Shown here: positions 7,679 to 60,665 of the stretch, in pieces
Position numbering within the stretch: position 1 is the first letter of the stretch
How the letters are laid out: each line of letters starts with the position of its first letter
From: Amycolatopsis umgeniensis
GTDB lineage: Bacteria > Actinomycetota > Actinomycetes > Mycobacteriales > Pseudonocardiaceae
NCBI RefSeq assembly: GCF_014205155.1
Contig: NZ_JACHMX010000001.1
Location: 3,224,001 to 3,288,000, forward strand
Direction of reading: 5' to 3'
Length of the DNA stretch: 64,000 bases
Position numbers and translations under genes: made by a program
Notes under the pieces: model-generated
The model's database searches: none
Seen by the model: the letters and a program-made list of their open reading frames with translations, nothing else
Told to the model about the DNA's origin: nothing

Positions 7679-7721
7679 GAAGGGAGCTTTCCTCGCATAG
7701 GACGTGGTGAAAGCTCCCTTC
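7679..7721. repeat. Intergenic hairpin, AAGG..CTTT family
   Basis: Perfect 13-bp arms (7679-7691 GAAGGGAGCTTTC; 7709-7721 its complement) with a 17-base loop, in the 94-base gap between ftsB-like and DUF501. Each arm is itself partly palindromic (GAA...TTC). It may act as terminator or attenuator between the two genes. It resembles the elements near 16.5, 40.0 and 60.6 kb. Confidence 0.65.
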
Positions 7722-7749
7722 ACCGCGTCGCATGCGGCGATGGTCCCCT

Positions 7750-8292
7750 TCAGCCGCCCGCGACCTGATCCCACAGCTTCTCGTACCAGGAGCCCGCGGG
7801 CACCGGCTGCTGACCTTGCGGCTCTCCCTGCTCGGGCGCCTTGTCCTCGGGCAGCTGCACGATGTACGGCGTCTCGCCGGGCTTGACGAAACCGAAGCGT
7901 TTACGCGCCTCCGCCTCGATCTGCGCGGGGTCGCTCAGCTCGGCCTTGCGGCCTTCCAGCTGGGCGACGCCCCGCTGCAGCTCGGACTGCAACTGCTGCT
8001 GCTCGGTCACCTCGGACTTCTGGCTGAGGTACGTGCGCAGCGGGACGGCGATGGTGAACGCGAGCGCGCACACCACGATCGCCACCACAGCGGCCCGGCG
8101 GGTGGTGGACATGCCGAGCACCTTCGCGGCACCCGATGCCCGTTTCGCCGCCAGGCTGCGGCGCAGCCGGGTTCGGGCGCGGACCTCCGTCGTCGTCGTG
8201 CGACGGGCGCGCTCGGGACGGCGGCCCCTGCCGGAGCCACCTCCGTCCGCGCGCCCGTTACGACGGGTCCGCGCCCTCCCCCGGTCCGCCAT
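7750..8292 (-). CDS. ftsB: FtsB/DivIC septum-formation initiator protein
   Basis: Bitopic division protein (180 aa). An Arg/Gly/Ala-rich basic cytoplasmic tail (1-65) is followed by one membrane helix about 66-88 (RRAAVVAIVVCALAFTIAVPL). A short extracytoplasmic coiled coil follows (QKSEVTEQQQLQSELQRGVAQLEG) and then the family segment AEARKRFGFVKPGETPYIV. FtsB/DivIC bridges FtsL and FtsQ in the divisome. The gene follows eno by six bases, so it is probably co-transcribed, as in M. tuberculosis (Rv1023-Rv1024). Confidence 0.9.
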   Translation of the reverse strand: MADRGRARTRRNGRADGGGSGRGRRPERARRTTTTEVRARTRLRRSLAAKRASGAAKVLGMSTTRRAAVVAIVVCALAFTIAVPLRTYLSQKSEVTEQQQLQSELQRGVAQLEGRKAELSDPAQIEAEARKRFGFVKPGETPYIVQLPEDKAPEQGEPQGQQPVPAGSWYEKLWDQVAGG

Positions 8293-8298
8293 CGCTGG

Positions 8299-9630
<1,332 letters not shown>

Positions 9631-9689
9631 CTAGCCGTCGGCGTCGTTCACCCGTTGGAGGCACGCGCCACATCGCACGGCGCCAGTAC

Positions 9690-10166
9690 CTATTCGGTGG
9701 GTGGTTCACCTGCGCGGACTTCCCGCCAGCCCGACGGGAGCTCGACGGTGTCGGAGAACTGCTGCCAGAAAGTCCAGCTGTTGCCGCCGATGTCGGAGAC
9801 GGTGAACACGCGGGCGCCGTAGGGCTGATCCTGCGGCGCGTCGAGGTCGGCGTCTTCGCCCAGGGCGGCGCGCACCCGCTCGTACTGCGCGTCGGCGTCG
9901 GGGACGTAAACGATGTTCAGCTGGCCGACAGGGCCGTCGACGCCCTTGGCCGCCCAGTATTCGGGACCGACCCCGGCCAGCTGGATCTTCGCCGGGCCCG
10001 CGCACAACGTGGCCTGGAACACCTCGCCGGAGGCGTCGGCGAACCGTACCTCCTCGGTGAACCCGAACACTCTGACCAGCCACGCGACCGCTTCGGTCGC
10101 GTCGGCGTAGTAGAGGTACGGCGCGAGACCGAGGTATTCGGGCCTGTCCTCTTCGGCACTGCTCAT
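9690..10166 (-). CDS. VOC-family (glyoxalase/bleomycin-resistance-like) protein
   Basis: Small metal-dependent vicinal-oxygen-chelate protein (158 aa). It has paired beta-alpha-beta modules: LAPYLYYADATEAVAWLVRVFGFTEEVRF and later VYVPDADAQYERVRAALGE, then the terminal YGARVFTVSDIGGNSWTFWQ with the usual C-terminal VOC pattern. No enzymatic role can be assigned. An in-frame ATG at 10184 is preceded by AGGAG at a long 11-base spacing and is an alternative start. It is divergent from the TPR gene at 10239. Confidence 0.82.
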   Translation of the reverse strand: MSSAEEDRPEYLGLAPYLYYADATEAVAWLVRVFGFTEEVRFADASGEVFQATLCAGPAKIQLAGVGPEYWAAKGVDGPVGQLNIVYVPDADAQYERVRAALGEDADLDAPQDQPYGARVFTVSDIGGNSWTFWQQFSDTVELPSGWREVRAGEPPTE

Positions 10167-10238
10167 GGCAAGACAGTCCACCATGACCGTTTCAGCTCCT
10201 CGTGGACGGCCCTGCCCAGGGGTATCGTGGAGCGGACC

Positions 10239-10652
10239 ATGATGGATGCCGAACCCGCCCCAGAACCCGGTCCGGACTCGTCCGGCGAATCGCGGTTCCG
10301 TGCCTTCCGACAGGCGGAGGCCCTGGTCGAAAGCCGCAGGCCGCTCGACGCCCTCAAGGCCCTCCAGCCGTTGCTGGAGGAGGAAACCGACAAGCCGAGC
10401 GTGCAGTTGCTGGCGGGCCGCGCGTACTTCCACTCCGCACAGTTGCGGCGGGCCGAGCGGGCCTTCACCCGGGTGCTGGAACTGGACCCCACCGATCATT
10501 ACGCGCGGTTCGTACTCGGGCGCACCCTCCAGCGCCTCGGACGGCTGACCGAGGCGCTCGCGCAGATGCGGATCGCGTCGGCGATGCATCCGATCCCGGA
10601 ATACCTGGAAGCGATCAGCGAGGTCAGCGCGCGGATCGCGTTGCGCGACTGA
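10239..10652 (+). CDS. Small tetratricopeptide-repeat protein
   Basis: 137-residue cytoplasmic protein made of TPR-like helical pairs. AYFHSAQLRRAERAFTRVLELDPTDHYARF is a clear TPR unit with the A-x-x-x-[F/Y] and DP spacing, flanked by ALVESRRPLDALKALQPLLEE and TLQRLGRLTEALAQM. It is likely a protein-interaction scaffold with unknown partner. Two consecutive ATG codons (10239, 10242) follow GTGGAG at suitable spacing. It is divergent from the VOC gene, so the 72-base gap holds both promoters. Confidence 0.8.
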   Translation: MMDAEPAPEPGPDSSGESRFRAFRQAEALVESRRPLDALKALQPLLEEETDKPSVQLLAGRAYFHSAQLRRAERAFTRVLELDPTDHYARFVLGRTLQRLGRLTEALAQMRIASAMHPIPEYLEAISEVSARIALRD

Positions 10653-10662
10653 CCCCGGGGCC

Positions 10663-11232
10663 TCAGGTGGACTTGGCCCGCAGGTGGGCCCGCTCGCCCT
10701 GTTTGCCGAACAGCACCAGCAGCTCCACCGGCCCCGGCCCCGCGCTCCCGAACCAATGCGGCACCCGCGTGTCGAACTCGGCCGCCTCGCCGGGCCCCAT
10801 CGTGAAGTCGCGATCGCCGAGCACCGCCCGCAACCGTCCACTGAGGACGTACATCCACTCGTAGCCCTCGTGCGTCCGTTGCACCGGTTCGATGTTCTCG
10901 ACGGGGATCAGCAGTTTGAACGCCTGCGGCTGACCCGGCTGCGCGCTCAGCGACCAGGCGGTGAACCTGCCGAACTTCCGCGGTTTCATCCGGATCCGGG
11001 GATCGGACGGCTCGGGTTCGCCGACCAGTTCGTCGAGCGGGACCTTGTGTGCCTCCGACAGCGTCAGCAGCAGCTCCAGCGTGGCCTTCCGGGTGCCCGA
11101 TTCGAGCCGCGAGAGCGTACTGGCGGAGATCCCCGTCGCCTCCGAGAGCGCGGAGAGGGTGGTGCCGCGTTCCTTGCGGAGCTGCTTGAGCCTCGGGCCG
11201 ACCTCGGCGAGCCGCCGTTCGATGTCCTCCAT
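10663..11232 (-). CDS. XRE-family regulator with C-terminal cupin domain
   Basis: DNA-binding regulator (189 aa). The HTH spans about residues 12-66 (LKQLRKERGTTLSALSEATGISASTLSRLESG). A cupin_2 sensor domain follows at about 100-185 (HEGYEWMYVLSGRLRAVLGDRDFTMGPGEAAEFDTRVPHWF), containing the His/Glu pattern of a small-ligand or metal-binding barrel. It is divergent from the thioredoxin reductase-like gene, with repeated TTTGCCA half-sites in the shared promoter gap. That suggests it controls both genes. The ligand is unknown. Confidence 0.88.
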   Translation of the reverse strand: MEDIERRLAEVGPRLKQLRKERGTTLSALSEATGISASTLSRLESGTRKATLELLLTLSEAHKVPLDELVGEPEPSDPRIRMKPRKFGRFTAWSLSAQPGQPQAFKLLIPVENIEPVQRTHEGYEWMYVLSGRLRAVLGDRDFTMGPGEAAEFDTRVPHWFGSAGPGPVELLVLFGKQGERAHLRAKST

Positions 11233-11241
11233 GTCTCCAGT

Positions 11242-11268
11242 TTGCCAAACCGGCAATGAACTTTGCCA
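11242..11268. promoter_or_regulatory. Candidate operator in XRE-cupin/reductase promoter gap
   Basis: Inverted repeat TTGCC-AAACC-GGCAA at 11242-11256, plus another TTTGCCA copy at 11262-11268 in direct orientation, 21 bases (two helical turns) from the first. It lies between the two divergent genes, as expected for autoregulation by the XRE-cupin protein. No binding data. Confidence 0.5.
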
Positions 11269-11298
11269 GATCTCGGCCGGAGACGGATGCTCGGCCGT

Positions 11299-12207
11299 AT
11301 GAACAGCGAATTCGACGTGGTGATCATCGGCGGTGGTGTCGCGGGCCTGAGCGCGGCGTTGGTACTGGGCAGGGCGCGGCGCAAGGTCGCTGTGATCGAC
11401 GGTGGCACGCCGCGCAACGCCCCGGCCGCGCACGCGCAGGGTTTCCTGACCAGGGACGGCATCCCGCCCCGAGAACTCTTGGCGATAGGCCGTGACGAGG
11501 TGCGCGGATACGGCGTGGAGATCATCGAGGACGTCGTCCACCGGCTGCGGCACGACAAAGCGGTGGAACTGGCGAGCGGCCGGGTCGTCAGCGGGCGCCG
11601 GATCGTGATGACCACCGGGCTGGCCGACGAACTGCCCGACGTCCCCGGCGTCGCGGAGCGTTTCGGCGCCGACGTGCTGCACTGCCCGTACTGCCACGGC
11701 TGGGAAGTGCGCGATCAGCGCTTCGGCGTGCTCGCCACCTCCGAGAAGTCGGTCCACCAGGCGCTGATCGTCTGGCAGTGGAGCAAGGACCTGACGTTCT
11801 TCACGCACACACAGCAGATCTCGGCCGAGGACCGGGAGAAGCTGACCGGGCTGGGCATCCGGATCGTCGACGGGAAGGTGTCCGAACTCGCCGTCGAAGA
11901 CGACCGTCTGACCGGGGTCCGGCTCGTGGACGGCGAACTCGTCGAACGCGACGTCGTGTTCGTCGGCCCGAAGTTCGTCCCGCACGACAGGCTTCTCACC
12001 CAGATCGGCTGTTCGCGCACCGAAGACGGTTTCGTCGCGGTGGATGCGCAGGGCAGGACGGACGTGGACGGGGTATGGGCGGCGGGCAACGTCGTCGATC
12101 CGATGGCGCAACTGGTCGTCGCGGCCGGCGACGCCTACCGGATGGCGTCGGCGCTCAACTTCGATCTGGTGCTCGAGGATCAGGGCGCGACGCTGGCGTC
12201 CGCGTAG
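11299..12207 (+). CDS. Thioredoxin reductase-like FAD/NAD(P)H oxidoreductase
   Basis: Two-dinucleotide-fold flavoprotein (302 aa). The FAD-binding EFDVVIIGGGVAGLSAALVLGRARRKVAVID is at the N-terminus. The redox-active disulfide is CPYC in VLHCPYCHGWEV, and the C-terminal FAD motif is DGVWAAGNVVDP. No thioredoxin gene is adjacent, so it may be a stand-alone TrxR-like enzyme of the type used in small-molecule disulfide formation, or a general reductase. An in-frame ATG at 11287 has GGAG four bases upstream and could be the real start. It converges on, and overlaps by 28 bases, the next gene. Confidence 0.88.
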   Translation: MNSEFDVVIIGGGVAGLSAALVLGRARRKVAVIDGGTPRNAPAAHAQGFLTRDGIPPRELLAIGRDEVRGYGVEIIEDVVHRLRHDKAVELASGRVVSGRRIVMTTGLADELPDVPGVAERFGADVLHCPYCHGWEVRDQRFGVLATSEKSVHQALIVWQWSKDLTFFTHTQQISAEDREKLTGLGIRIVDGKVSELAVEDDRLTGVRLVDGELVERDVVFVGPKFVPHDRLLTQIGCSRTEDGFVAVDAQGRTDVDGVWAAGNVVDPMAQLVVAAGDAYRMASALNFDLVLEDQGATLASA

Positions 12208-12887
12208 GCGTCGGCCGCGCTGAAGACTTCCTGGGCGTAGGGAACGGCGGGGTCGAACGTCCGGATCGACTTCCACCAGCCCGCCGGGGTGGCGACGTCG
12301 TCACCAGCGGCGCACAGGTAACGCGCGGTGGCGAAAGCGGCGTCGTCGAGGTCCTTCGGATCCGGCTGCTTCCCGTCGCTTCTGGCCCGGACGGCCTGCT
12401 TGGCCCACACGTCGGGCGGGAGCGTGATCGGGCCGGGCCTGCCCTGCGCCGCTTCGACATGGGCGATGCCGGCGAGCGTCGCCCACGAGAGGTGACAGCC
12501 CGGCTTCTGCCGCCGGAGCCACATCTCGGCCCGGCCGTAGGCGGACAGATCGGTGGCGGCGAGCCGGGTCTTCCCGGCCACCCGGTGCGCCCAGGTCTCG
12601 AGTTCGGCCGCGTCGGAAACGGTGGGCCGGTCGGGCGGCGCGGCAAGCCCCGCTCGCGGCGTCGCCACCCCCGGCTGCGGCTTCTGATCGGGAACCGGGA
12701 GCGCGGCCTGCGGTTCCGCGGGCGGTGGCGGCTCCTCCCCGCCCGGCCGGTGCACACCGACGGTCATGATCAGCACCACGCCGGTGAGCACGAGCCCGCC
12801 CGCGAAAGCGAGCCTGGGGACGTACGGCGGCAGAGGGCGCGCTGGATGCTCCGGGGCGTCGATGCTCGACTGGGTGGTTTCGGCCAC
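12180..12887 (-). CDS. Membrane-anchored lytic transglycosylase-like protein (LpqU-like)
   Basis: 235-residue exported protein. A cytoplasmic Pro-rich N-terminus is followed by one membrane helix about 26-46 (RLAFAGGLVLTGVVLIMTVGV) and a Pro-rich linker. The catalytic-like segment CHLSWATLAGIAHVEAAQG follows; its Glu aligns with the Glu in GRIESNH of the larger relative at 5804-6961. The later ATARYLCAAG motif is also shared. It lacks the AVGPTQFIPSTW substrate-groove motif, so activity is less certain. It overlaps tail-to-tail with the reductase gene. Confidence 0.75.
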   Translation of the reverse strand: MAETTQSSIDAPEHPARPLPPYVPRLAFAGGLVLTGVVLIMTVGVHRPGGEEPPPPAEPQAALPVPDQKPQPGVATPRAGLAAPPDRPTVSDAAELETWAHRVAGKTRLAATDLSAYGRAEMWLRRQKPGCHLSWATLAGIAHVEAAQGRPGPITLPPDVWAKQAVRARSDGKQPDPKDLDDAAFATARYLCAAGDDVATPAGWWKSIRTFDPAVPYAQEVFSAADAYADASVAP

Positions 12888-13093
12888 CCGGTCAGGTTAC
12901 TTCGCCACGCTGTCGGGGGATGACCCATTCGGATGAGCAGGCCAGCAGACGGTAAATCGGCGAGCGTGGCGCTGATTCGTTATGTGATCTGCGTAGTGCG
13001 CGCTGACCTGCGGATGCTCTCCGGGCGCCCGTCCGATCAAGGTCTGTTCAAGTGTTTCGTCCGCATTCGCCGCCACCCCGCTGAGCTGGACTT

Positions 13094-13112
13094 TCAGGCA
13101 AGGCTTACCTAA
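13094..13112 (+). promoter_or_regulatory. IdeR/DmdR-type iron box upstream of efeUOB
   Basis: TCAGGCAAGGCTTACCTAA matches 15 of 19 positions of the IdeR/DmdR consensus as I know it (TTAGGTTAGGCTAACCTAA). It ends 38 bases before the efeU start. Iron-replete repression of the operon by an IdeR/DmdR-type regulator is expected. Confidence 0.75.
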
Positions 13113-13150
13113 AACCATGAGGTTCAGTCAGGACGACCAGGGAGAACGAC

Positions 13151-13993
13151 GTGTGGTTCGCGAGTGCGCTCATCGGCCTGCGTGAAGGCCTCGAAGCGGC
13201 ACTCGTCGTCAGCATCCTCGTCGCGTTCCTGGTCAAGACCGAACGACGGCACGCGCTGCGCTGGGTGTGGCTCGGTGTCGGTGTCGCGGTCCTGCTGTCG
13301 GTCGGGGTCGGCGCGATCCTCACCTACTCCACCGCCCAGTTGTCCTTCGAGCAGCAGGAACTGCTCGGCGGCACCCTGTCGATCGTCGCGGTCGGATTCG
13401 TGACGGCGATGATCTTCTGGATGCGCAAGGCGTCGAGGACGATCGCTGCCGAGCTGCGCGGGAAGCTGGACGAAGCGCTCGACGTGGGCCCTGTCGCCGT
13501 CCTCGTCCTGTCTTTCTTCGCCGTCGGCCGCGAAGGCCTGGAGACGGCGGTGTTCTTCTACTCCACCGTGCAGACCGCCCAGGGCGGCACGACCGAACCG
13601 CTGATCGGTTTCACCGCGGGCATTCTCACCGCGATCGTGCTGGCGTACCTGATCTACCGCGGCGCCGTCCGGTTCGACCTCGGCAAGTTCTTCACGATCA
13701 CCGGTGTCCTGCTGGTGTTCGTCGCGGCGGGCGTACTCGGCTACGGCCTGCACGACCTGCAGGAAGCCGCCTTCCTGCCCGGTTTGACCACGCTCGCGTT
13801 CGACGCGTCGGCCGTGCTGCCCGAGACCAGCTGGTACGGCGCGCTGCTCAAGGGGATCTTCAACTATTCGCAGCAGACGACGGTCCTGCAGGCCGTCGCG
13901 TGGGTCGCGTACGTGGCGATCGTGCTGCCGCTGTTCCTCAGGCCCAAGAAGAAGGTCGTGACGGCTCCCGTCGCGGCCGCGATCAAGGAGTGA
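13151..13993 (+). CDS. efeU: Ferrous iron permease EfeU (FTR1 family)
   Basis: Seven-helix membrane permease (280 aa) of the Efe iron-uptake system. Both REGLE motifs that carry iron through the membrane are intact: R11-E15 (LIGLREGLEAALVVSI) and R127-E131 (FFAVGREGLETAVFF). The start is GTG, with GGAG six bases upstream. It is the first gene of efeUOB, and its stop abuts the efeO Shine-Dalgarno. It is regulated through the iron box 38 bases upstream. Confidence 0.96.
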   Translation: MWFASALIGLREGLEAALVVSILVAFLVKTERRHALRWVWLGVGVAVLLSVGVGAILTYSTAQLSFEQQELLGGTLSIVAVGFVTAMIFWMRKASRTIAAELRGKLDEALDVGPVAVLVLSFFAVGREGLETAVFFYSTVQTAQGGTTEPLIGFTAGILTAIVLAYLIYRGAVRFDLGKFFTITGVLLVFVAAGVLGYGLHDLQEAAFLPGLTTLAFDASAVLPETSWYGALLKGIFNYSQQTTVLQAVAWVAYVAIVLPLFLRPKKKVVTAPVAAAIKE

Positions 13994-13998
13994 CCACC

Positions 13999-15129: not shown

Positions 15130-16391
15130 CCGGGACGGAGCACACCCCAGTCTCCCGCCGGAAGCTGTTCGGCATGGCGGGAGCGGGTGCCGCTCTCGTA
15201 GGAACCGGCGCCGCGGCCGGGATCGGCGCGAACCGGCTGCTCGGCGGGGACAGCCCGGCGCAGGCCGCGCAAAACGTCGTCGAGTTCCACGGCGAGCACC
15301 AGGCCGGGATCGTGACACCGGTGCAGGAGAACCTGCACTTCGTCTCGCTGGACGTCACGACGAAGGATCGCGAAAAACTGGTCAAGCTGCTGCGCACGTG
15401 GACGGACGCGGCCCGGCGGATGACCGCGGGCCAGGAGGTCGGCACGGGCGGCGCCGTCGGTGGCGCCGCCGCCGCCCCGCCGAGCGACACCGGCGAGGCG
15501 CTCGACCTGGCGGCGTCGTCGCTGACGCTGACCATCGGTTTCGGTCCCTCGCTGTTCGACGACCGGTTCGGGCTCGCCTCGAAACGCCCGGCCGCGCTGA
15601 TCGATCTCCCCCTGTTCCCGGCGGACAAACTCGACCCGGCGCGCGGCGGCGGCGACATCTGTATCCAGGCTTGCGCCGACGATCCGCAGGTCGCGGTGCA
15701 CGCGATCCGGAACCTGGTGCGGCTGGGCTTCGGTGTCACCGCGGTGCGCTGGTCGCAACTCGGGTTCGGCCGCAGTTCGTCGACGTCGCGGGCGCAGTCC
15801 ACGCCGCGGAACCTGTTCGGGTTCAAGGACGGGACGCGCAACGTCAAGGCCGAGGAGGCCGACGTCCTGCGCGATCAGGTGTGGGCGACGGCCGAAGACG
15901 GGCAGCCGTGGATGGCGGGCGGATCGTTCCTGGTGGCCCGCCGGATCCGGATGCACATCGAGACCTGGGACAGGGAATCGTTGCAGGGTCAGGAAGGCAT
16001 CGTCGGCCGGTCGAAGGGCGCGGGCGCGCCGCTCGGCCAGGCCGCCGAGTTCGACGAACCCGATTTCCACGTCGGCGGCGCCGGCGGCGAGAAGCTGATC
16101 CCGGAGGACTCGCACGTCCGGCTCGCCTCGCACGAGAACCTGAACGGGGCGCGGATCCTGCGGCGCGGCTACAACTTCGTCGACGGTTCCGACGGTGTCG
16201 GGCACCTCGACGCGGGGCTGTTCTTCCTCGCGTTCAACCGGGACACGCGCAAGCAGTTCGTGCCGATGCAGCAGGCGCTGTCGTCGAAGGACGCGATGAT
16301 GGAGTACCTGCAGCACACCGGATCCGCCCATTTCGCCGTGCCACCGGGCGTACGCGAAGGCGGATTCTGGGGCGAGGGCCTGTTCGCTTGA
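15126..16391 (+). CDS. efeB: Tat-exported Dyp-type haem peroxidase EfeB
   Basis: Deferrochelatase/peroxidase (421 aa) thought to act with EfeUO in iron acquisition from ferrous iron or haem. The Tat signal SRRKLFG is at residues 10-16, with a hydrophobic stretch ending around AQA. Dyp landmarks are the distal GFKDGTRN (GxxDG) and the C-terminal ENLNGARILRRGYNF region holding the proximal His. The ATG overlaps the efeO stop as ATGA, so translation is coupled. Folding with cofactor before Tat export is the family's known behaviour. Confidence 0.95.
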   Translation: MTGTEHTPVSRRKLFGMAGAGAALVGTGAAAGIGANRLLGGDSPAQAAQNVVEFHGEHQAGIVTPVQENLHFVSLDVTTKDREKLVKLLRTWTDAARRMTAGQEVGTGGAVGGAAAAPPSDTGEALDLAASSLTLTIGFGPSLFDDRFGLASKRPAALIDLPLFPADKLDPARGGGDICIQACADDPQVAVHAIRNLVRLGFGVTAVRWSQLGFGRSSSTSRAQSTPRNLFGFKDGTRNVKAEEADVLRDQVWATAEDGQPWMAGGSFLVARRIRMHIETWDRESLQGQEGIVGRSKGAGAPLGQAAEFDEPDFHVGGAGGEKLIPEDSHVRLASHENLNGARILRRGYNFVDGSDGVGHLDAGLFFLAFNRDTRKQFVPMQQALSSKDAMMEYLQHTGSAHFAVPPGVREGGFWGEGLFA

Positions 16392-16454
16392 CCTCCAGTC
16401 ACGCGAAGGTGGGAGCGGGCTCGACACTCGGTGTCGGTGTCGGGACGTCGGTGT

Positions 16455-16515
16455 CGGTGTCGCGAAAGCCACTTTCGGGACGTCTGATGTCGCGAAAGTG
16501 GCTTTCGCGACACCG
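16455..16515. repeat. Long nested hairpin, copy 1 (GCGAAAGCCACTTTC type)
   Basis: 23-bp perfect arms (16455-16477 and 16493-16515) around a 15-base loop. Each arm is itself a small palindrome: CGAAAG-CCA-CTTTCG on the left and CGCGAAAG-TGG-CTTTCGCG on the right. It can fold as one long stem or two short ones. The first element after efeB. Confidence 0.8.
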
Positions 16516-16587
16516 GGGTGATGGTGAAGCGGGACGCGACTTACCACTCACGACCACCTCGACCCGACACGCGAAGCCACAGGCAGA

Positions 16588-16642
16588 CGTTGCGAAAGCC
16601 ACTTTCACAACCTTCACCGTTGCGAAAGTGGCTTTCGCAACG
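16588..16642. repeat. Long nested hairpin, copy 2 (GCGAAAGCCACTTTC type)
   Basis: 19-bp perfect arms (16588-16606 and 16624-16642) around a 17-base loop. It shares the core GCGAAAGCCACTTTC with copy 1, but the outer arm bases differ compensatorily (CGTT/AACG instead of CGGTGTC/GACACCG). This shows that structure, not just sequence, is kept. Confidence 0.8.
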
Positions 16643-16740
16643 CAGGGAACCGTCGGGCCGCCCGATCCGACACCGGACGAAGACCTCACTCAAGAAACAC
16701 ACGCCGGCACAACGTTGACCCCCAACGGTTTTCCAGACTC

Positions 16741-16771
16741 TTGACCTCTAGTTAAGTCGAGGTCGCAGACT
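16741..16771 (+). promoter_or_regulatory. MerR/SoxR-type promoter with overlapping operator
   Basis: The -35 TTGACC (16741-16746) and -10-like CAGACT (16766-16771) are separated by 19 bases, the over-long spacing used by MerR-family activators. Between them is the dyad ACCTCTAGTTAAGTCGAGGT (16744-16763), close to the SoxR box pattern CCTCAAGTTAACTTGAGG. The expected transcription start falls on the ATG at 16778. Confidence 0.65.
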
Positions 16772-16777
16772 GGTCCC

Positions 16778-17188
16778 ATGTTCAGTGAAGCGGAACTCGA
16801 CTACCTCGCCACCCAAGGACTCGGGCGGCTCGCGACGGCTCAGCCGGACGGGACGCTACAGGTCAGCCCGGTCGGCTACGCCTACAACACCGAGACCAAG
16901 ACGATCGACATCACCGGCTACGAACTGGCGAAGAGCAAGAAGTTCCGGAACGTGGCCGCCAACGGGCAGGCCGCGTTCGTGGTGGACGACATGCCGTCGT
17001 ACGACCCGCCGAGGATCCGCTGCCTCGAGATCCGGGGCCGGGCCGAGGCGCTGACCGGCGCCCGCACGCCGGACGGCCATCTCGACGGCGCGGTGATCCG
17101 GATCCACCCTTCGCGGATCATCAGCCTCGGCGTCGACGACCCGGACCACGACCCGCTCGATCTCGTTCCGCACAACCGGAACGTCTGA
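16778..17188 (+). CDS. PPOX-class (pyridoxamine-oxidase-like, possibly F420-dependent) oxidoreductase
   Basis: 136-residue split-barrel flavin/F420 protein. It starts FSEAELDYLATQGLGRLATAQPDGTLQVSPVGYAY, the usual PPOX/F420 opening. KSKKFRNVAANGQAAFVVDD and IRCLEIRGRAEALTG follow as typical strands. The substrate cannot be predicted. The ATG lies seven bases after the -10 element with no Shine-Dalgarno, so the mRNA is probably leaderless. The operator suggests induction by a MerR/SoxR-type regulator, i.e. a redox or xenobiotic response. It converges with the membrane-protein operon. Confidence 0.85.
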   Translation: MFSEAELDYLATQGLGRLATAQPDGTLQVSPVGYAYNTETKTIDITGYELAKSKKFRNVAANGQAAFVVDDMPSYDPPRIRCLEIRGRAEALTGARTPDGHLDGAVIRIHPSRIISLGVDDPDHDPLDLVPHNRNV

Positions 17189-17192
17189 CGGT

Positions 17193-17229
17193 GAAAGGGG
17201 CGTTCCCGATTCCCGGGAACGCCCCTTTC
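17193..17229. terminator. Bidirectional hairpin terminator
   Basis: 16-bp perfect arms (17193-17208 and 17214-17229, GAAAGGGGCGTTCCCG and complement) with a 5-base loop. It sits in the 53-base gap between two convergent genes. There is no U-tract, as is usual for high-GC actinobacteria. Confidence 0.85.
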
Positions 17230-17241
17230 GTCGCGACACGG

Positions 17242-19984: not shown

Positions 19985-19999
19985 GTTCTCCCCTTCGTT

Positions 20000-35605: not shown

Positions 35606-35677
35606 TCCGCCGTAGTGTAATCGGCAGCACTTCAGATTTTGGTTCTGACAGTTCAGGTTCGAATCCTGGCGGCGGAG
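35606..35677 (+). tRNA. trnQ: tRNA-Gln (anticodon TTG)
   Basis: 72-base cloverleaf. The acceptor stem TCCGCCG (35606-35612) pairs with CGGCGGA (35670-35676), and base G35677 is the discriminator. The anticodon stem TCAGA/TCTGA encloses loop TTTTGGT with anticodon TTG at 35639-35641. The T arm carries GGTTCGAATCC. No CCA is encoded. It decodes CAA, and CAG by wobble. The tRNA-Gln-glmU neighbourhood is shared with mycobacteria. Confidence 0.97.
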
Positions 35678-39987: not shown

Positions 39988-40037
39988 AGCAAGGGACCTT
40001 TGCTCTCACCGGTGCGTGAGAGCAAAGGTCCCTTGCT
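39988..40037 (+). terminator. Long hairpin terminator after prs
   Basis: 22-bp perfect arms (39988-40009 and 40016-40037) with a 6-base loop, ten bases after the prs stop. It is followed by a short T-run (TTTT around 40041). The left arm contains GCAAGGGACCTTTGC, itself almost palindromic, linking it to the other AAGG..CTTT hairpins. Confidence 0.88.
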
Positions 40038-45229: not shown

Positions 45230-45268
45230 AGAGGGCTGGGCCCGCGATGTTCGCGGGCCCAGCCCTCT
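45230..45268. terminator. Bidirectional hairpin terminator
   Basis: 18-bp perfect arms (45230-45247 and 45251-45268) around a 3-base loop, between the DivIVA-module operon and the convergent acyl-AMP ligase gene. Confidence 0.88.
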
Positions 45269-45272
45269 CGTG

Positions 45273-49821: not shown

Positions 49822-49891
49822 GCCTCAAGCCTACGTGCCCGCTCCACTTGTGCTGCCACCAGGAGAAAGAGAACAGGACGAGTCAGACGCA

Positions 49892-49931: not shown

Positions 49932-49941
49932 CGTGGAGGAA

Positions 49942-50964: not shown

Positions 50965-51162
50965 GCAAATGGGGCGCTGCTTCTTTCGAGCGCGCCAACC
51001 GTCACCGAGTGCCCGTCCAGAGCGGACGGGTTTCAGAGGTAAGGGAAAAGACTCAGGCAGTAACGGTTGAGCGTCGACACGCACTTACCGTGCGGCGACC
51101 TTCGTCGACTACACGTCGCCTGGTCAGCAGGAGCGGGTGGGTGACCCTGTTCATTAGGCACA

Positions 51163-51255
51163 GCCTCCATCGGTCCTGGCGGTAGCACCTGCCCTGTGGA
51201 GGGTGGTTGCTGCGACTTCGGCGAGCCAGGTCTCTCAGTCGCTCGGGATGGCTCA
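51163..51255 (-). ncRNA. SAM riboswitch (SAM-I/SAM-IV superfamily) upstream of the MetN-like gene
   Basis: Read on the minus strand, it has the S-box landmarks: ACTGAGAGACCTGGCTCG with a closing GCGAC/GTCGC stem (P2), AGCAACC, and AGGTGCTA-CC-GCCAGGA, closed by a terminal CCATC/GATGG stem (P1; 51247-51251 with 51167-51171). There is no obvious P4 stem, which fits the SAM-I/IV or SAM-IV variants of actinobacteria. About 200 bases of leader separate it from the ATG at 50964, with a possible GGCGAC/GTCGCC stem in between. Confidence 0.88.
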
Positions 51256-51562
51256 CTGAGTAAAACCGATCCCACTGGATGAAAGCAAGCACGTAGGCGC
51301 AGATCACACGTCTGGTCGCGTCCATCATACAGGAACTGCGGTCCATATTATGAGAAGACTGCAGCTGGTCTCTCGCCGAAACAGGGCCGCTGCCTGCTAA
51401 GACGGGGCGAGGCCGGTACAGATCGAGAAGAGGATTTATGCGTCCGTGCTGACCTTGACCAACTCGCTTCCGGGCGGCCCCGGTCACACCTGCGACAGGT
51501 GGAAAACCGTTCCCTGACGCGGCGCCATGCCACCCTGCGAGACGGTCATGGCCGCCCGATGA
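51256..51562 (-). promoter_or_regulatory. Upstream leader/promoter of the riboswitch-controlled gene
   Basis: No convincing gene; a 144-aa frame across 51053-51487 runs through the riboswitch and is rejected. On the minus strand a TATGAT-like -10 near 51325 is a possible promoter. The rest of the gap to the rsmA stop shows nothing I can name. Confidence 0.4.
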
Positions 51563-52402: not shown

Positions 52403-52592
52403 CCGACGATCGTAGCCAGCCCCGGCGGGCGGCTCCGAGCGCCCGACCCGCCCGCATCATCCTTACGGAGTTTCCGAACCGACACGCATCCCACTCAAGA
52501 GTGATCGGTGCAGTTTCACGCCCTCGGAGGGTGATCATCATCCACCCGATCGATACCGTGCATTCGTTCGACTCTGGCCCGACAATCGAGGG

Positions 52593-53579: not shown

Positions 53580-53641
53580 GGGCCACCATGCGGGGCGAAA
53601 CCCACACGATGACCCTCAGGGGAAAGAGAACGTTCTGGCTG

Positions 53642-55099: not shown

Positions 55100-55434
55100 T
55101 GGGTCGTTCCCTTTCCCAAGACGTCGAGGAGCTCGACAACCGCTCCACAACGTCCTTCGTCTCGATGCGCACTTCGGCACACCTCTAGAAGTCCGACACC
55201 CGCAGTCAGCGCCATCGTCACGGTTCCAGGCCGTACCGCTCCCGGTTCCGCTTCCCCGACGTGCACTGACGTGACTGTGGGCGTAACAGCCGGAAACCGC
55301 ATGAGCGGGTACCGACCGGCACGATCACGGGACAGTAACGAACCTCGACGGGTTGCGCAAACACCCCCCGGAGTGTCGTGACGTTGGTCACTCATCAGAG
55401 TGGACCATTGCTGATCACTAATGTCGCAATCCGT
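55100..55434 (-). promoter_or_regulatory. 335-base rpfB leader/promoter region
   Basis: Between rpfB and the tatD stop. It contains a G.U-tolerant hairpin ACACTCC/GGGGTGT at 55361-55376 that may end the tatD transcript. Otherwise I see no ORF and no recognisable riboswitch; the GGGGTGAA core of the c-di-AMP riboswitch, which precedes some rpf genes, is absent. Confidence 0.45.
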
Positions 55435-56271
55435 TCAACTGGGGGTGACTGTCGGCAAACGGAAGACCCGCTCAGCGGTCACTCGGACCGATTCGGCCAC
55501 CTCGTGCACCGCCTCGCCCCTGAACGAGGCGAGGTGGCGAACGGTGTAGGCGGCGCAGTAGGGCTCGTTCGGTCGCCCACGGAACGGATGCGGGGTCAAG
55601 AACGGCGCGTCCGTTTCGACGAGGTACTGGCCCGCAGGAACGATGCGCGCCGCCTCATGCAGCCCGCGCGCGTTCCGGAAGCTGACCGTTCCCGCGAAGG
55701 AAAGGACATAACCCGCGTCGATGCACCGTCGCGCGATGTGCTCGTCCCCGGAGAAACAGTGGAAGACGACCTGCTCGGGCGCCCCCTCCTCCTCGAGGAT
55801 CCTGAGGACGTCGTCGTGCGCGTCTCGATCATGGATCATCAGCGGCTTGTTGATCCGCTTGGCGAGATCGATGTGCCACCGGAAGGCGTCCTGCTGGGCA
55901 TCGTGGGGCGAGTAGTCCCAGTAGTAGTCGAGGCCGGTCTCCCCGACCGCGACCACTCTGGACTCCTTGGCGAGACTCTCCACTTCGGATTTCTCGGCCT
56001 CGCCGAAATCCTTGGTACGCGTGGGATGGATCGCGACGGCGGCCCAAACCCGTGAGTCCCAAGTGGACGCTTGCGCGGCCCAGCGAGCGGCGGCGAGATC
56101 GTCCGCGACGGTGATCACCCGCGAGACACCGGCGCGTTCGGCGCGATCGATCATGGCTGTCACATCAGCCGCGGTGACCGCGCCGCACGCGTCGAGGTGG
56201 GTATGCGCGTCCACCACCGAAACCGGCAACCTGTCCGGAATCGGCGGCAGTTCCTTCTTCTCCGCACCCAT
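55435..56271 (-). CDS. tatD: TatD-family metal-dependent hydrolase/DNase
   Basis: TIM-barrel amidohydrolase (278 aa). The metal ligands appear in VDAHTHLD (HxH), in AVGETGLDYYWD and in IHDRDAHDDVLRILEEEGAPEQVVFHCFSGD, with LVETDAPFLTPHPFRGRPNEP at the end. TatD proteins are 3'-5' DNases or editing enzymes. It lies nine bases after metG on the minus strand, so it is likely co-transcribed, as in many actinobacteria. Confidence 0.96.
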   Translation of the reverse strand: MGAEKKELPPIPDRLPVSVVDAHTHLDACGAVTAADVTAMIDRAERAGVSRVITVADDLAAARWAAQASTWDSRVWAAVAIHPTRTKDFGEAEKSEVESLAKESRVVAVGETGLDYYWDYSPHDAQQDAFRWHIDLAKRINKPLMIHDRDAHDDVLRILEEEGAPEQVVFHCFSGDEHIARRCIDAGYVLSFAGTVSFRNARGLHEAARIVPAGQYLVETDAPFLTPHPFRGRPNEPYCAAYTVRHLASFRGEAVHEVAESVRVTAERVFRLPTVTPS

Positions 56272-56280
56272 GTCAGCTGA

Positions 56281-58074
56281 TCATTTCGAGATCGGCGCCC
56301 ATTCGGGACCTGTCTCGCCCAGTTCCGGGTCCAGCTTGGCGAACAGCGGTGTCGGCTTCTCCAGCGGCTTGCCGACCTCGATCGGCACGGACTTCCAGCG
56401 TGCCTGTTCGGTCTTGTAGTCCCCGGTGATGATGGGGTTGATGCGGCCGGGGATGTCGAGATCTTCGACTTCCTGGAGTTCCGGCTGGGCCGCCCAGACA
56501 CCGGAGCCGCCGAGCGCCTCGTGCACCTTCTGAGCCGAGTGGGGCAGGAAGGGGGTCAGCAGCGTGTTGGCGTCCGAGACGACCTGCAAGGCGGTGTGCA
56601 GGACGCTGTCGCGGCGAGCGGGGTCGTCCTTGAGTTTCCAGGGCTCCTGGTCCGACAGGTAGCGGTTCGCGGCGGTGACGACGCGCATGGCCTCGCTGGC
56701 CGCCGCCTTGAACCGGGACCGCTGGAGGTGGGCGCCGGCGGTGTCGAACGCCTTTCGGGAGAGCTCCTTGAGCTCCTCGTCGGCGGCCGTGGGGGCGTCC
56801 GGACGCGGAATGGCGCCGACGTTCTTGTGGGCCATGGAGATGGACCGGTTGACGAGGTTGCCCCACTCGTTGGCCAGCTCGAAGTTGGTCCGGCGGACGA
56901 ATTCGTCCCAGGTGAAGTCGGTGTCCTGGGTCTCGGGGCCCGCGACCGAGATGAAGTACCGGAGGGTGTCCGGGCCGAATTCACGCAGGAAGTCGTGCAC
57001 GTAGATGACCGTGCCGCGCGAGGTCGAGAACTTCGAGCCGCTCATCGTGAGGAACTCGCTGGAAACGATCTCGTCGGGCAGGTGCAGCTTGCCGTACTTG
57101 CCGGGCACGCCGCCTCGGTCACCCTCACCGTTGTGGCCGAACAGCAGCGCCGGCCAGATCTGGGCGTGGAAGGTGATGTTGTCCTTGCCCATGAAGTAAT
57201 AGGAGCGGGCTTCCGGGTTGCTCCACCACTCCTGCCAGGCGTCCGGGTTCCCGGATCGGCGCGCCCACTCGACGCTCGCGGAGAAGTAGCCGATGACCGC
57301 GTCGAACCAGACGTAGAAGCGCTTCATCGGCTGGTCGCGCCAGCCGTCGAGCGGGATCTTCACACCCCAGTCGAGATCGCGGGTGATCGGCCGCGGACGC
57401 ATGTCGTCGATCAGGTTCTTGGTGAAGTTGAGGACGTTCGGGCGCCAGTCGTTCTTGCTGGACAGCCATTTGCCCAGGGTCTCGACGAAGGCGGACAGGT
57501 CGAGGAAGTAGTGCTCGGTCTCGACGAACTTCGGTGTTTCACCGTTGATCCGGGACTTCGGGTTGATCAGCTCCGCGGCGTCGAGCTGATTGCCGCAGTT
57601 GTCGCACTGGTCGCCGCGCGCACCGTCGTAGCCACAGATCGGGCAGGTGCCCTCGATGTAGCGGTCGGGCAGGGTGCGACCGGTCGAAGGGCTGATCGCG
57701 CCTCGCGTGGTCTTGGGAACGACGTAGCCGTTGCGGTGCAGCGCGAGAAAGATCTGCTGCGTGACGTCGGCGTGGTTGCCCGTGGTGGTGCGGGTGAACA
57801 GGTCGTAGGTGAGACCGAGTCCCTGCAGGTCCTGGCCGATCTGACGGGTGTACTTGTCCGCCGTCTGTTGGGAGGTCAGGCCTTCGTTGTCCGCCTGGAC
57901 GGTGATCGGGGTGCCGTGTTCGTCGGTGCCGGACACCATGAGCACCCGGTTGCCGGCCATTCGCTGGTAGCGGGAGAAGACGTCGGACGGGACGCCGAAT
58001 CCGGACACGTGGCCGATGTGGCGGGGGCCGTTGGCGTAGGGCCAGGCCACCGCAGTCAACACTGGGGTGCTCAT
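56281..58074 (-). CDS. metG: Methionyl-tRNA synthetase
   Basis: Class I aminoacyl-tRNA synthetase (597 aa). The HIGH motif is in [15 protein letters not shown]. The zinc-binding insert has [18 protein letters not shown]. The KMSKS equivalent is KFSTS in [14 protein letters not shown]. The anticodon domain extends to the C-terminus; there is no C-terminal dimerisation domain, the usual short actinobacterial form. It is divergent from the PadR regulator. Confidence 0.97.
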
Positions 58075-58136
58075 GCTTGTTTAGCCTACGGACGTCGTCT
58101 AAGGCATTGTTGTCCGGGAGAGGATCGGAGGCCTCG

Positions 58137-58730
58137 GTGTCCGCCACGCGTCTGCTGGTGCTGGGTGTCGTGCGCATGTACGGGAGGGCACACGGCTACC
58201 AGGTCCGGCGCGAGCTCCTCTCGTGGGCGGCCGACAAGTGGGGCAACGTCCAGCCGGGGTCGATCTATCACGCGTTGAAGAAGATGACCGCCGAAGGGCT
58301 CCTGGAACAGGTCGCCGACATCGAAGCGGGCGGCGGACCCGACCGCGTCGCGTACGAGCTGACCGAAGACGGGGAGACCGAGTTCCTCGTACAGCTCGGC
58401 AGGGCGTTGTCGAGCGACGACGCGACCGGGTACACGCTGTCCGCGGCGGTCACGTTCATGCCGACTCTGCCGCGTGCACAAGTGCTGGCTCTGCTGAAAC
58501 AGCAGCTGGCGAACATGGAAGCGCACGCGCAGTCGACCCACTACGCCCGTGAACACGCCGTCGACCTGGGGAAACCGCCGCACGTCAGCGAGCTGTACCG
58601 CCTGTGGAGCGTGCACGCGGACGCGAACGTGACCTGGATGCGGGACCTGATCGGCCGTCTTGAAGCGGGCGAGTACGTGATGGCGGGCGAAGGCGACCAA
58701 GAAGCCGTGTTCGGCGCGCCGCCCAAGTAA
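58137..58730 (+). CDS. PadR-family regulator of the DrrAB-like exporter
   Basis: 197-residue regulator. The winged helix is LLVLGVVRMYGRAHGYQVRRELLSWAADKWGNVQPGSIYHALKKMTAEGLLEQV, and a C-terminal helical Vir-like dimerisation domain follows. The start is GTG 58137 with GGAGG six bases upstream. Its TAA stop lies inside a TCAAATTTGA operator, and a second operator precedes the ABC ATPase. It probably represses the downstream exporter and perhaps itself. Confidence 0.93.
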   Translation: MSATRLLVLGVVRMYGRAHGYQVRRELLSWAADKWGNVQPGSIYHALKKMTAEGLLEQVADIEAGGGPDRVAYELTEDGETEFLVQLGRALSSDDATGYTLSAAVTFMPTLPRAQVLALLKQQLANMEAHAQSTHYAREHAVDLGKPPHVSELYRLWSVHADANVTWMRDLIGRLEAGEYVMAGEGDQEAVFGAPPK

Positions 58731-58796
58731 TCAAATTTGACTATGAAACGACTACTAGGGCACAGTGCGTCCATCCAGCTAGTCAAATTTGACTAG
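58728..58796 (+). promoter_or_regulatory. Two PadR-type operators flanking the exporter promoter
   Basis: CTAGTCAAATTTGACTAG (58779-58796) is a perfect 18-bp palindrome. TAATCAAATTTGACTA (58728-58743) differs by one base from a palindrome. The centres are 52 bases apart, about five helical turns, which would allow loop formation. TTGACT in each could serve as a -35, so repressor binding would block the polymerase. Confidence 0.82.
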
Positions 58797-58818
58797 CCGG
58801 AGACCGGAAGGGGTAGAC

Positions 58819-59853
58819 ATGATCAAGGCACGCGGCCTTGAGCGGCGTTTCCGCCGCAAGGGCCGCAATGGGGGCGAGGTCCACGCGGTCAAGGGCGTCG
58901 ATCTCGACGTGTCGGCCGGGGAGCTGGTCGGCTTCCTCGGGCCGAACGGCGCGGGGAAGACCACGACCCTGCGCATGCTGACGACGCTCCTCAAGCCCAC
59001 CGCCGGCGAAGCCACTGTCGGCGGCTGTGACCTGCTCGCCGACCCACTGGGGGTGCGCCGGCGAATCGGGTACGTCGCTCAGGGCGGCGGCACGGCACCG
59101 GCGAGCAAGGTCGTCGAGGAGGTCGAGTTCCAGGGGCGGCTGTACCGGATGAGCAAGGCGGACGCGCTCGCGCGCGGAGCCACCCTCGCCGAGCAGCTGG
59201 ACCTCGCCGGACTGGACCAGCGGCAGACCGCGACGCTGTCGGGCGGGCAGCGCCGCCGTCTCGACATCGCGCTCGGGCTGATCCACTCGCCCGGTCTCGT
59301 GTTCCTCGACGAGCCGTCGACCGGGCTCGACCCGCAGAGCCGCGCGAACCTGTGGGAGCACATCCGCAGGCTGCGCGACGAGCAGGGAGTCACTGTCTTC
59401 TTGACCACGCACTACCTCGACGAGGCCGACGCGCTCTCAGACCGGCTGATCGTCATCGACGACGGGAAGATCGTCGCCGAGGGCACGCCGGATTCGCTGA
59501 AGGCGAGGGTTTCCGGCGACAGTGTCGTCATCGAGGTCACGCCGGAGTCGGCGGCGGAGTCGGCGGCGGAGTCGGCGGCGGAGGCCGCGGAGGTCGCGGG
59601 CCGTCTCGAAGGAGCACACGAGATGACCGTCACCGACGGCACAGTGCGTTTCCGGGTACCACGCGGGGACACCGCGATGCCCGAACTGCTGCGGGCACTG
59701 GACGCGCGTGGCATCACGATGACGTCCATGCAGGTGCACCGGCCGACACTCGACGACGTCTTCCTGACCCTGACGGGCCGAAGCCTGCGTGACGCCGAAG
59801 AGGGTGCGTCGGTCGAGGACGCTCCGGAAAAGGAGGCCACGCATGTTGCATGA
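58819..59853 (+). CDS. DrrA-like ABC exporter ATPase
   Basis: 344-residue ATPase of the drug-export group. Walker A is GPNGAGKTT, signature LSGGQRRRLDIALGL, Walker B LVFLDEPSTGLDP, and H-loop FLTTHYLDEADALSDRL. A C-terminal extension of about 100 residues like DrrA follows (THYLDEADAL... RPTLDDVFLTLTGRSLRD). Between them is a 3x ESAA repeat (see 59545-59580). The start ATG has GGAAGGGG upstream. It is under the PadR operators and overlaps its permease gene by 11 bases. Substrate unknown. Confidence 0.94.
   Translation: MIKARGLERRFRRKGRNGGEVHAVKGVDLDVSAGELVGFLGPNGAGKTTTLRMLTTLLKPTAGEATVGGCDLLADPLGVRRRIGYVAQGGGTAPASKVVEEVEFQGRLYRMSKADALARGATLAEQLDLAGLDQRQTATLSGGQRRRLDIALGLIHSPGLVFLDEPSTGLDPQSRANLWEHIRRLRDEQGVTVFLTTHYLDEADALSDRLIVIDDGKIVAEGTPDSLKARVSGDSVVIEVTPESAAESAAESAAEAAEVAGRLEGAHEMTVTDGTVRFRVPRGDTAMPELLRALDARGITMTSMQVHRPTLDDVFLTLTGRSLRDAEEGASVEDAPEKEATHVA
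59545..59580 (+). repeat. 12-base tandem repeat within the exporter ATPase
   Basis: Three exact copies of GAGTCGGCGGCG, coding ESAA each time, with a degenerate fourth copy just after. It extends the linker between ATPase and C-terminal domain. Copy number could vary by slippage without shifting frame. Confidence 0.85.
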
Positions 59854-60607
59854 CACCTGGTTGATCTTCCGCCGGGACATGCTGGCGGCGTTGCGCAACC
59901 CGACGTGGCTTGCAATCGGCATCATGCAGCCGCTCCTCTATTTATTCTTCTTCGGGCCGCTCCTGGTGAAGGCGCTCAACGCGCAAGGGCTGTCCGATGT
60001 GGACGGATGGATGATCTTCACCCCGGCGATCATCGCGCAGCTCGCGCTGTTCGGCAGTTCCTTCGTCGGGTTTGGCCTCCTCGCGGAATACCGCTCCGGC
60101 GTGGTCGAGCGGATGCGGGTCACGCCGGTGAGCCGGGTGGCGTTGTTGCTGGGCAAGGTGCTCGCCAACGCGCTGCAGACGGTCGTCCAGGCGTTGATCA
60201 TCATCGCGTTGGCGTATCTGGTCTTCGACTTGAACGCACCGTTCGGCGGCGTCGTGCTCAGCCTGGTGATCGTTTTCCTTCTGTCGATCACGTTGGCGTC
60301 GTGCTCCTACGCGCTGGCGCTGACCCTCAAGAGCGAAGACGCCTTCCCTGCTTTGCTCAACGCGGTTCTCATGCCGTTGCTGCTGCTGTCCGGAATCCTG
60401 ATCCCGATCACCGCGGGGTCGGCGCCGGAGTGGCTGTACACGATTTCCCGCATCAATCCGTTCCGGCATGTGGTGGATGTCGAGCGGAACAGTTTCCGCG
60501 GTGACTTCTCGATGGACGCGCTGTTCACCGGGAGCGTCGTGGTGCTGGTCATGGCCGTTCTGGCCATCTGGTGGGGCTCGCGTACGTTCCAACGCGAAAA
60601 CGCCTGA
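59843..60607 (+). CDS. DrrB-like ABC-2 permease
   Basis: 254-residue ABC-2 type permease with about six helices (IGIMQPLLYLFFFGPLLV, IFTPAIIAQLALFGSSFVGFGLL, ALLLGKVLANALQTVVQALIIIALAYLVF, VVLSLVIVFLLSITLASCSYALAL, etc.). ISRINPFRHVVDVERNSFRGDF is the ABC-2 signature region near the C-terminus. AAAGGAGG lies six bases before the ATG, a very strong start, so the permease is well translated although it overlaps the ATPase gene. It forms an exporter with the upstream ATPase. Confidence 0.92.
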   Translation: MLHDTWLIFRRDMLAALRNPTWLAIGIMQPLLYLFFFGPLLVKALNAQGLSDVDGWMIFTPAIIAQLALFGSSFVGFGLLAEYRSGVVERMRVTPVSRVALLLGKVLANALQTVVQALIIIALAYLVFDLNAPFGGVVLSLVIVFLLSITLASCSYALALTLKSEDAFPALLNAVLMPLLLLSGILIPITAGSAPEWLYTISRINPFRHVVDVERNSFRGDFSMDALFTGSVVVLVMAVLAIWWGSRTFQRENA

Positions 60608-60620
60608 GACACGCTGTACC

Positions 60621-60665
60621 GAAAGGTCACCTTGCGGCCGCTCCGCGGACGTAAGGTGACCTTTC
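60621..60665. repeat. Intergenic hairpin, AAGG..CTTT family
   Basis: Perfect 13-bp arms (60621-60633 GAAAGGTCACCTT and 60653-60665). Each arm includes AAGGT-C/G-ACCTT, a perfect small palindrome. It lies 13 bases after the exporter permease stop and 29 bases before the next start, so it probably acts as a terminator. Confidence 0.78.

Follow-up and report, generated by a model that had tools for sequence, protein, structure and literature searches.

Six inverted repeats are scattered through a 64,000-nucleotide stretch of the Amycolatopsis umgeniensis genome (contig NZ_JACHMX010000001.1, positions 3,224,001 to 3,288,000; hereafter the window), and five of them are nested hairpins, in which each arm of a long stem is itself a near-palindrome. 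We think it rather probable that such elements are lineage-specific, often multi-copy gene-end hairpins that end transcription or block 3' decay, that have spread without a Y1 transposase of the RAYT (REP-associated tyrosine transposase) kind, and whose arms are maintained in part by template switching. The elements are multiplied in the genome, share a characteristic spacing and position at gene ends, and turn over between relatives. Their stems covary, some have inverted centres, and a Y1 transposase was not found in 80 genomes of the genus.

Nested hairpins in the window

The preliminary description of the window listed six long, perfect inverted repeats, and all six are found where it placed them. 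Long they are, and not all of them perfect but near-perfect: the 13-bp arms at 7679–7721 are exact reverse complements, and arm complementarity over the full detected extents is 80 to 96% in five of the six. Its statement that in most of them the arms are near-palindromic holds for five, the exception being the plain stem at 17193–17229. The features are as follows, none with an assigned strand.

7679–7721: 13-17-13 nested hairpin, GAAGGGAGCTTTC / GAAAGCTCCCTTC, with imperfect arm palindromes, between two minus-strand genes; degenerate third unit to about 7751
16387–16399: left copy of the 13-bp direct repeat CTTGACCTCCAGT beside an inserted block; 12 relatives have a gap of 33–34 bp here
16447–16644: composite unit A - linker - B; matches covering both A and B recur elsewhere
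16455–16515: type A nested hairpin, GTGTCGCGAAAGCCACTTTCG..., of the half-site family of 385
16588–16642: type B nested hairpin, GTTGCGAAAGCCACTTTC...
16740–16752: copy of the same 13-bp repeat on the right, CTTGACCTCTAGT, with one mismatch
17193–17229: plain, non-nested hairpin in a convergent gene gap; orthologous hairpins are related or unrelated
39988–40037: nested hairpin AGCAAGGGACCTTTGCT...AGCAAAGGTCCCTTGCT, beginning 9 bp past the stop codon of a ribose-phosphate pyrophosphokinase gene; spacing 33 bp
60621–60665: nested hairpin AAGGTCACCTT...AAGGTGACCTT, 30-bp spacing; identical in genomes G019 and G030, with a single difference in G095

The arm centres lie 30 bp apart in the elements at 7679, 16455, 16588 and 60621. 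The unit can be generalised as P(13)-S(17)-P'(13), 43 bp in all, with a spacer S that is itself often palindromic. At 7679 the nesting is imperfect (four of six arm pairs), which places this element under the threshold of the 54-element scan given below; it extends rightwards as a degenerate 13-17-13-17-13 array. At the orthologous place a similar element is present in G095 and none in G019 or G030.

The nested layout exceeds chance

The genome is a single contig of 9,225,930 bases, and the window lies within an 864-kb stretch of it that was used for the counts of layout, position and families. Mutually inverted pairs of AAG..CTT palindromes number 31 in 464 kb, 28 of them at a centre spacing of 30 bp, as against 0 in each of five dinucleotide shuffles. 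When the AAG..CTT assumption is dropped, the peak at 30.0 bp persists (89 versus a median of 34). In the 864 kb, mutually inverted 13-bp palindromes occur 54 times at 30 bp and 0 to 9 times at each of the remaining spacings between 16 and 70 bp; a few of these 54 units appear unrelated, and three fall inside gene calls. Nested arms are present in 53 of 131 intergenic hairpins, compared with 9.1 expected and a maximum of 17 in 200 shuffles. A chance origin of the layout is rejected by the 30-bp peak and the nested-arm counts, both well above shuffles. The recurrence of the layout with differing sequences, which the preliminary description had pointed out, is far above chance, although nesting is not a general rule for intergenic hairpins. 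Its proposal of a single family stands as to dispersed repeats for some of the elements and is too simple as to unity, since the six hairpins comprise several sequence families and one plain hairpin.

The excess was also counted by family. Centre-aligned clustering of the 131 hairpins at a 70% cut-off gives 67 families, of which 10 are multi-copy and together hold 74 hairpins. Nested families number 14 of 67 (4.7 expected; none of 300 shuffles as high), comprising 3 of the 10 multi-copy and 11 of the 57 single-copy families. At a 60% cut-off they number 10 of 56 (3.8 expected; 2 of 300 shuffles as high). Single-linkage clustering fuses 94 of the 131 hairpins, and the one-per-family test on these clusters yields just 5 of 32, with 1.8 expected and a shuffle maximum of 5. 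Nesting is genuine and partly unexplained. A second dispersed hairpin family, non-nested and of the form GTCCTCTGGATGCGGTAGTT..AACTACCGCATCCAGAGGAC, forms clusters of 12 and 3 members in the 864 kb around the window.

Position at gene ends

By type of gene gap, the 54 units divide into 33 convergent, 17 tandem, 1 divergent and the 3 inside gene calls, so that 33 of 51 intergenic units are convergent and 1 is divergent. The available intergenic sequence amounts to 109.5 kb, with 20.3 kb (18.5%) convergent and 29.7 kb (27.1%) divergent. Strong hairpins of any kind (stem score at least 13, in gaps of 20 to 700 bp) are found in 49 of the 75 convergent gaps, in 43 of the 275 tandem ones and in 8 of the 132 divergent ones, and in none of any class after one shuffle per gap. 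The 13-17-13 kind makes up 37 of the 131 strong hairpins, and short A and T stretches close the stems.

Turnover at orthologous gene ends

Comparison of orthologous convergent gaps with three relatives gives 29 cases of similar hairpins, 9 in which both genomes have hairpins that are unrelated, 7 with a hairpin in one genome only and 18 with none. In the 22 convergent comparisons that involve a nested element, its counterpart is an unrelated plain hairpin in 12, a similar plain hairpin in 2, a similar nested one in 4, and no strong hairpin in 4. Among 30 loci at the 17193 place, 23 have a resolved short gap, and in 22 of these (own genome included) the hairpin exceeds 20 shuffles; the single miss contains an N, and the remaining 7 loci are unresolved or long-gapped. 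At the 39988 place, the hairpin exceeds 20 shuffles in 27 of 30 loci. The hairpins at both places range from clear relatives to wholly different sequences.

Orthologous gene ends mostly retain a hairpin, often of unrelated sequence, a pattern that looks like function kept with sequence left free. It is mainly because the presence of a hairpin is kept while its sequence changes that we infer a gene-end role. In other genomes of the genus, the 39988 orthologues L280, L281 and L285 have gene-end hairpins of a GTCGTGAGTG..CACTCACGAC kind, and a hairpin resembling this kind is contained in the A-B linker of L294.

The whole stem covaries

At 17193, both sides have changed in 7 of 18 stem pairs among 15 sequences, and at 39988 in 3 of 26 whole-stem pairs, where slid controls give 0 or 1 in each case; paired changes at both stems exceed the controls. 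By comparison, none of the 14 nested-arm pairs at 39988 shows such changes. Two compensated arm changes at this locus preserve the whole stem, and each turns one 5' arm pair into G-U and breaks the 3' arm pair. The whole stems have folding energies of -24.5 to -52.5 kcal/mol, and single 17-nt arms -1.5 to -5.3 kcal/mol. Of the two foldings envisaged in the preliminary description, the one long stem is strong, and the pair of short hairpins is weak. Both covariation and folding energy point to the whole stem as what is maintained, and disfavour the nested arms as a maintained structure. Between the type A and type B consensus sequences, all four quarter-arms differ in a matching way, which speaks for nesting in these two families.

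Inverted centres

Across 33 orthologous loci, 87 comparisons of similar hairpins were made: 63 show the same orientation, 16 are uninformative and 8 are inverted. Since the hairpins are nearly symmetric, inversions are visible solely in the loop and at mismatches, and the comparisons share genomes. The 8 inverted among 71 informative comparisons, each supported by at least three letters, fall at four loci, and the AGCAAGGGACCTTTGCT family accounts for three of the four. A simple forward-only null model, consisting of letter substitution alone and leaving conversion from other copies outside, yields 0 inversions in 200 rounds.

At the 39988 place, the 15-base centre is inverted in 2 of 17 informative species, the window's own copy being uninformative. 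Inspected by eye, no informative species but these two has Watson–Crick pairing in all four outer spacer pairs. The outer spacer pairs of L264, L266 and L269 include one G-U, and the window's own 39988 copy pairs perfectly. In the consulted part of PMC8794818, complete loop inversions and multiple compensatory changes are among the footprints expected of template switching, and a compensatory change together with a loop inversion is described as the strongest possible support, extremely rare in rRNA genes. A centre inverted in place within a stem that stays paired matches this prediction, and template switching may be its cause.

Spread across genomes

The half-site GCGAAAGTGGCTTTCGC of the family to which the elements at 16455 and 16588 belong has 385 matches at one mismatch or fewer in its own genome, 192 forward and 193 reverse, compared with 0 and 1 for its reversed control. 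Among 60 genomes it is matched in 15, namely its own, 13 of 35 relatives of the same genus, and one outside genome that has just one site, with a mismatch. The 13 relatives hold 66 to 458 sites in ten cases and 4 to 7 in three. Within the genus, the half-site family is confined to some of the members.

The layout GAAGGNNNCCTTC-N17-GAAGGNNNCCTTC is more widely distributed. It is present in 53 of 80 genomes of the genus (own included), with 1 to 464 sites each and none in controls, and its centres and spacers vary by species; in its GAAGG form it has 166 sites in the own genome. Across the order, 25 of 298 genomes have it: 10 belong to the genus, another 8 to its family and 7 to a single further family; two of the 8 same-family genomes hold only a single, coding-like match. 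With the gap left free between 4 and 32, 817 of 898 matches lie at gap 17 in 14 genomes chosen for earlier layout matches, 464 of them from one genome. In three Micromonospora-like genomes of another family (G166, G253 and G107), 39 of 49 matches are at gap 18, a 31-bp spacing, and 10 of 49 at gap 17. The palindromes of these three are GAAGG..CCTTC as elsewhere, often with a TTAAC..GTTAA spacer; at a named Micromonospora locus, L155, the spacer is TTATC..GATAA.

A layout scan of named genomes gave at least 120 loci, picked for having a 30-bp pair, of which 80 are given with names. Among the matches listed, carriers are Amycolatopsis orientalis, A. keratiniphila, A. decaplanina, A. roodepoortensis and others, and, beyond the genus, Actinophytocola, Kutzneria, Lentzea, Prauserella, Saccharomonospora and Micromonospora. 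All of these further genera except Micromonospora are Pseudonocardiaceae. Type A and B elements are present at the A. roodepoortensis loci L119, L123 and L159. Palindrome-spacer units occur in runs with a 30-bp period in Actinophytocola algeriensis (L115, L136, L177).

The A-B block

The block that carries types A and B (16400–16739) is missing from all 17 readable relatives, with 12 further loci unreadable. In its place there is a gap of 33–34 bp in 12 relatives, and of 128 to 1190 bp, without exact half-sites, in five more distant ones. The block is flanked by the 13-bp direct repeat with one mismatch. Among the first 30 matches listed, 15 at other places cover A plus B; in 23 pairs the A-B linker measures 40 to 170 bp, and the distance within one A-A pair is 179 bp. 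The insert adjoins a palindromic TTGACCTC..GAGGTC site (16740–16764), a possible operator upstream of the gene at 16778, and half of the site is duplicated. It also parts this gene from a Dyp-type peroxidase gene, which is about 34 bp away in 12 relatives.

A search for one transposase family, Y1 (RAYT, PF01797), gave no match in 80 genomes of the genus and was positive in 5 of 14 control genomes. On this count, mobilisation by RAYT within the genus is rejected. Inspection by eye of about 100 of the 385 half-site places, which does not amount to proof, revealed no autonomous parent with type A ends 1–3 kb apart. Because a REPIN look-alike is abundant in a genus in which a Y1 transposase was not found, another route of spreading must exist.

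Other features of the window

A perfect 18-bp hairpin, non-nested and absent from the earlier list, lies in a convergent gap at 45230–45268. Two near-identical short palindromes, TAATCAAATTTGACTA and TAGTCAAATTTGACTA, at 58728–58743 and 58780–58795, are operator-like and upstream of a gene called at 58819. A SAM (S-adenosylmethionine) riboswitch at 51164–51254 (minus strand) and a tRNA at 35606–35677 (plus strand) are assigned by Rfam gathering score.

Likeness to known systems

REPINs (REP doublets forming hairpins; REP, repetitive extragenic palindrome) were described through their link to a Y1 transposase. In the consulted part of PMC3116915, they share with the present elements two short palindromes in inverted orientation around a spacer, folding into one hairpin, in high copy, extragenic and with the doublet as the unit. 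They differ in their usual spacing, 71 or 110 bp as against 30 bp here, and in that those doublets are randomly distributed in extragenic space, in contrast to the convergent-gap bias found here. They differ as well in the Y1/RAYT gene found in none of the 80 genus genomes. Of the REP tags GTAG and CGTC (PMC3733652, as far as consulted), GTAG by eye adjoins the palindrome of a CCTAC..GTAGG subfamily and not those of several others, an uncounted observation. The elements are like REPIN doublets and depart from REP and REPIN in the associated transposase.

BIMEs (bacterial interspersed mosaic elements) bind gyrase, IHF or DNA polymerase I. As mosaics of palindromic modules and linkers (PMC2817692, in the part consulted), they resemble the A-linker-B composites and 30-bp arrays, and differ in their sequences and in the RAYT not found in the 80 genus genomes. 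In a MITE (miniature inverted-repeat transposable element), the ends are defined and the target site is duplicated; the A-B block has one imperfect 13-bp direct repeat beside it, and ends that differ from those of the palindromes. Bidirectional intrinsic terminators share with the present hairpins a strong stem near stop codons, mostly in convergent gaps, closed by A/T stretches; they differ in that 74 of the 131 hairpins here belong to multi-copy families. A canonical intrinsic terminator likewise has a stable hairpin after the stop codon, but its downstream U-tract is absent from the 13-17-13 elements. Template-switch hairpins (PMC8794818, same part) share compensatory stem changes and inverted loops, and were described at rRNA and microRNA loci rather than at gene ends. 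By title and beginning of abstract, the open-access papers searched contain no description of these sequences, of Amycolatopsis palindromes or of actinobacterial REPs; the sequences themselves turned up in two papers, in each as one string matched by chance. The main text of PMC3733652, as far as consulted, mentions neither actinobacteria nor any of five related genera by name. In sum, we read the elements as REPIN- or BIME-like gene-end hairpins without a known mover, probably serving as bidirectional terminators or 3'-end barriers.

Weighing the explanations

In the mechanism that we favour, each palindrome at a gene 3' end would act as one long RNA hairpin, readable from either strand, which would stop transcription or block 3' decay, chiefly between convergent genes. 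Copies would reach new gene ends and displace older hairpins by a route other than a Y1/RAYT transposase. At replication, template switching across the hairpin would copy one arm onto the other and could flip the centre, and arm complementarity would in part be kept thereby.

Several observations weigh against this mechanism. The elements have no U-tract: in the six bases past 100 edges of 13-17-13 elements the T frequency is 0.01 to 0.14, versus 0.18 in intergenic sequence, and it is raised at just two positions, +7 (0.41) and +8 (0.32). The median distance to the nearest 3' end is 39.5 bp for nested hairpins (n=36), compared with 14.0 bp for plain ones (n=87). In 10 comparisons of nested elements, 4 of them convergent, 4 tandem and 2 divergent, a strong hairpin is missing from the other genome. 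The 30-bp rule is broken at 39988, where the arms are spaced 33 bp in the window's copy and 40 bp in the copies of 16 aligned relatives, and in genome G032, with 20 of 39 matches at gap 17. The A-B insert starts 55 bp before A and finishes 97 bp beyond B, and its boundaries thus do not fall at the palindromes. Inverted centres could also stem from conversion by another genomic copy in opposite orientation. Finally, the positions rely on uncurated gene calls from a self-trained, home-made predictor (764 genes, 85% coding in the 864 kb). As to the missing U-tract, 4 to 6.6% of mapped 3' ends in Streptomyces fit canonical criteria and A-rich tracts are virtually absent (PMC12207403, as far as consulted), and nearly 90% of such structures in Mycobacterium tuberculosis are followed by no U trail or by one in which U and A are mixed (PMC8355165, likewise). 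Given these figures, a hairpin without a U-tract could be a terminator, a 3'-decay barrier or a collision insulator, and termination by the present elements is plausible but unproven. The preliminary description had offered, besides protein-binding sites, a dispersed element or structured terminators special to the lineage, and these two suggestions are compatible: some of the hairpins are dispersed, as the 385 half-sites demonstrate, and position and turnover fit gene-end hairpins, for which termination would be one role.

That the hairpins are ordinary, unrelated terminators that look nested by chance is very improbable. Those at 17193 and 45230 are indeed plain, and 57 of the 67 families are single-copy, yet 11 of these 57 are nested, and the genome-wide counts, with a fixed 30-bp spacing, hundreds of near-identical copies and nested arms far beyond expectation, already refute this explanation for the nested families. 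The exact spacing across unrelated spacers in several genera, and the arrays at 30 and 60 bp (in a survey of loci preselected for a 30-bp pair and hence biased towards 30), would suit DNA sites for a dimeric protein, nucleoid-associated, gyrase-like or a recombinase, that spans two palindromes about three helical turns apart. We give this proposal little credence, as a nested element is swapped for an unrelated plain hairpin in over half of the convergent comparisons, the 39988 changes weaken the arm palindromes while preserving the whole stem, and the Micromonospora-like genomes prefer gap 18.

Non-autonomous mobile units, of REPIN or MITE type, might have no function in the cell and be best tolerated downstream of genes. 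The A-B block absent from every readable relative, its flanking imperfect repeat and the composite copies are what such units would leave; the transposase search, confined to Y1, and the retention of a hairpin at two orthologous 3' ends despite sequence change make them an unlikely full account. Template switching alone, by which palindromes would be perfected and multiplied mutationally without selection, is quite improbable: it would produce the inverted centres at four loci, and inverted loops with compensatory changes are its expected footprints (PMC8794818, in part), but it leaves unexplained how one sequence came to occupy hundreds of sites and why divergent gaps hold almost none. Possible, though on the whole doubtful, is a more specific form of the mechanism that we favour, in which the elements would be mobile terminators of the Pseudonocardiaceae: REPIN-like 43-bp units, spread without a Y1 transposase and known by their 30-bp architecture and not by sequence, would invade gene ends, replace the resident terminator and have their pairing kept perfect by template switching.

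If the hairpins are terminators, nature would have supplied with them a set of terminator exchanges at identical gene ends, in a group whose relatives have mostly non-canonical 3' ends. Were they mobile terminators, the sequence of a terminator would turn over within the genus while its function stays. The centres inverted in place make the origin and upkeep of long perfect stems testable on many hairpins.

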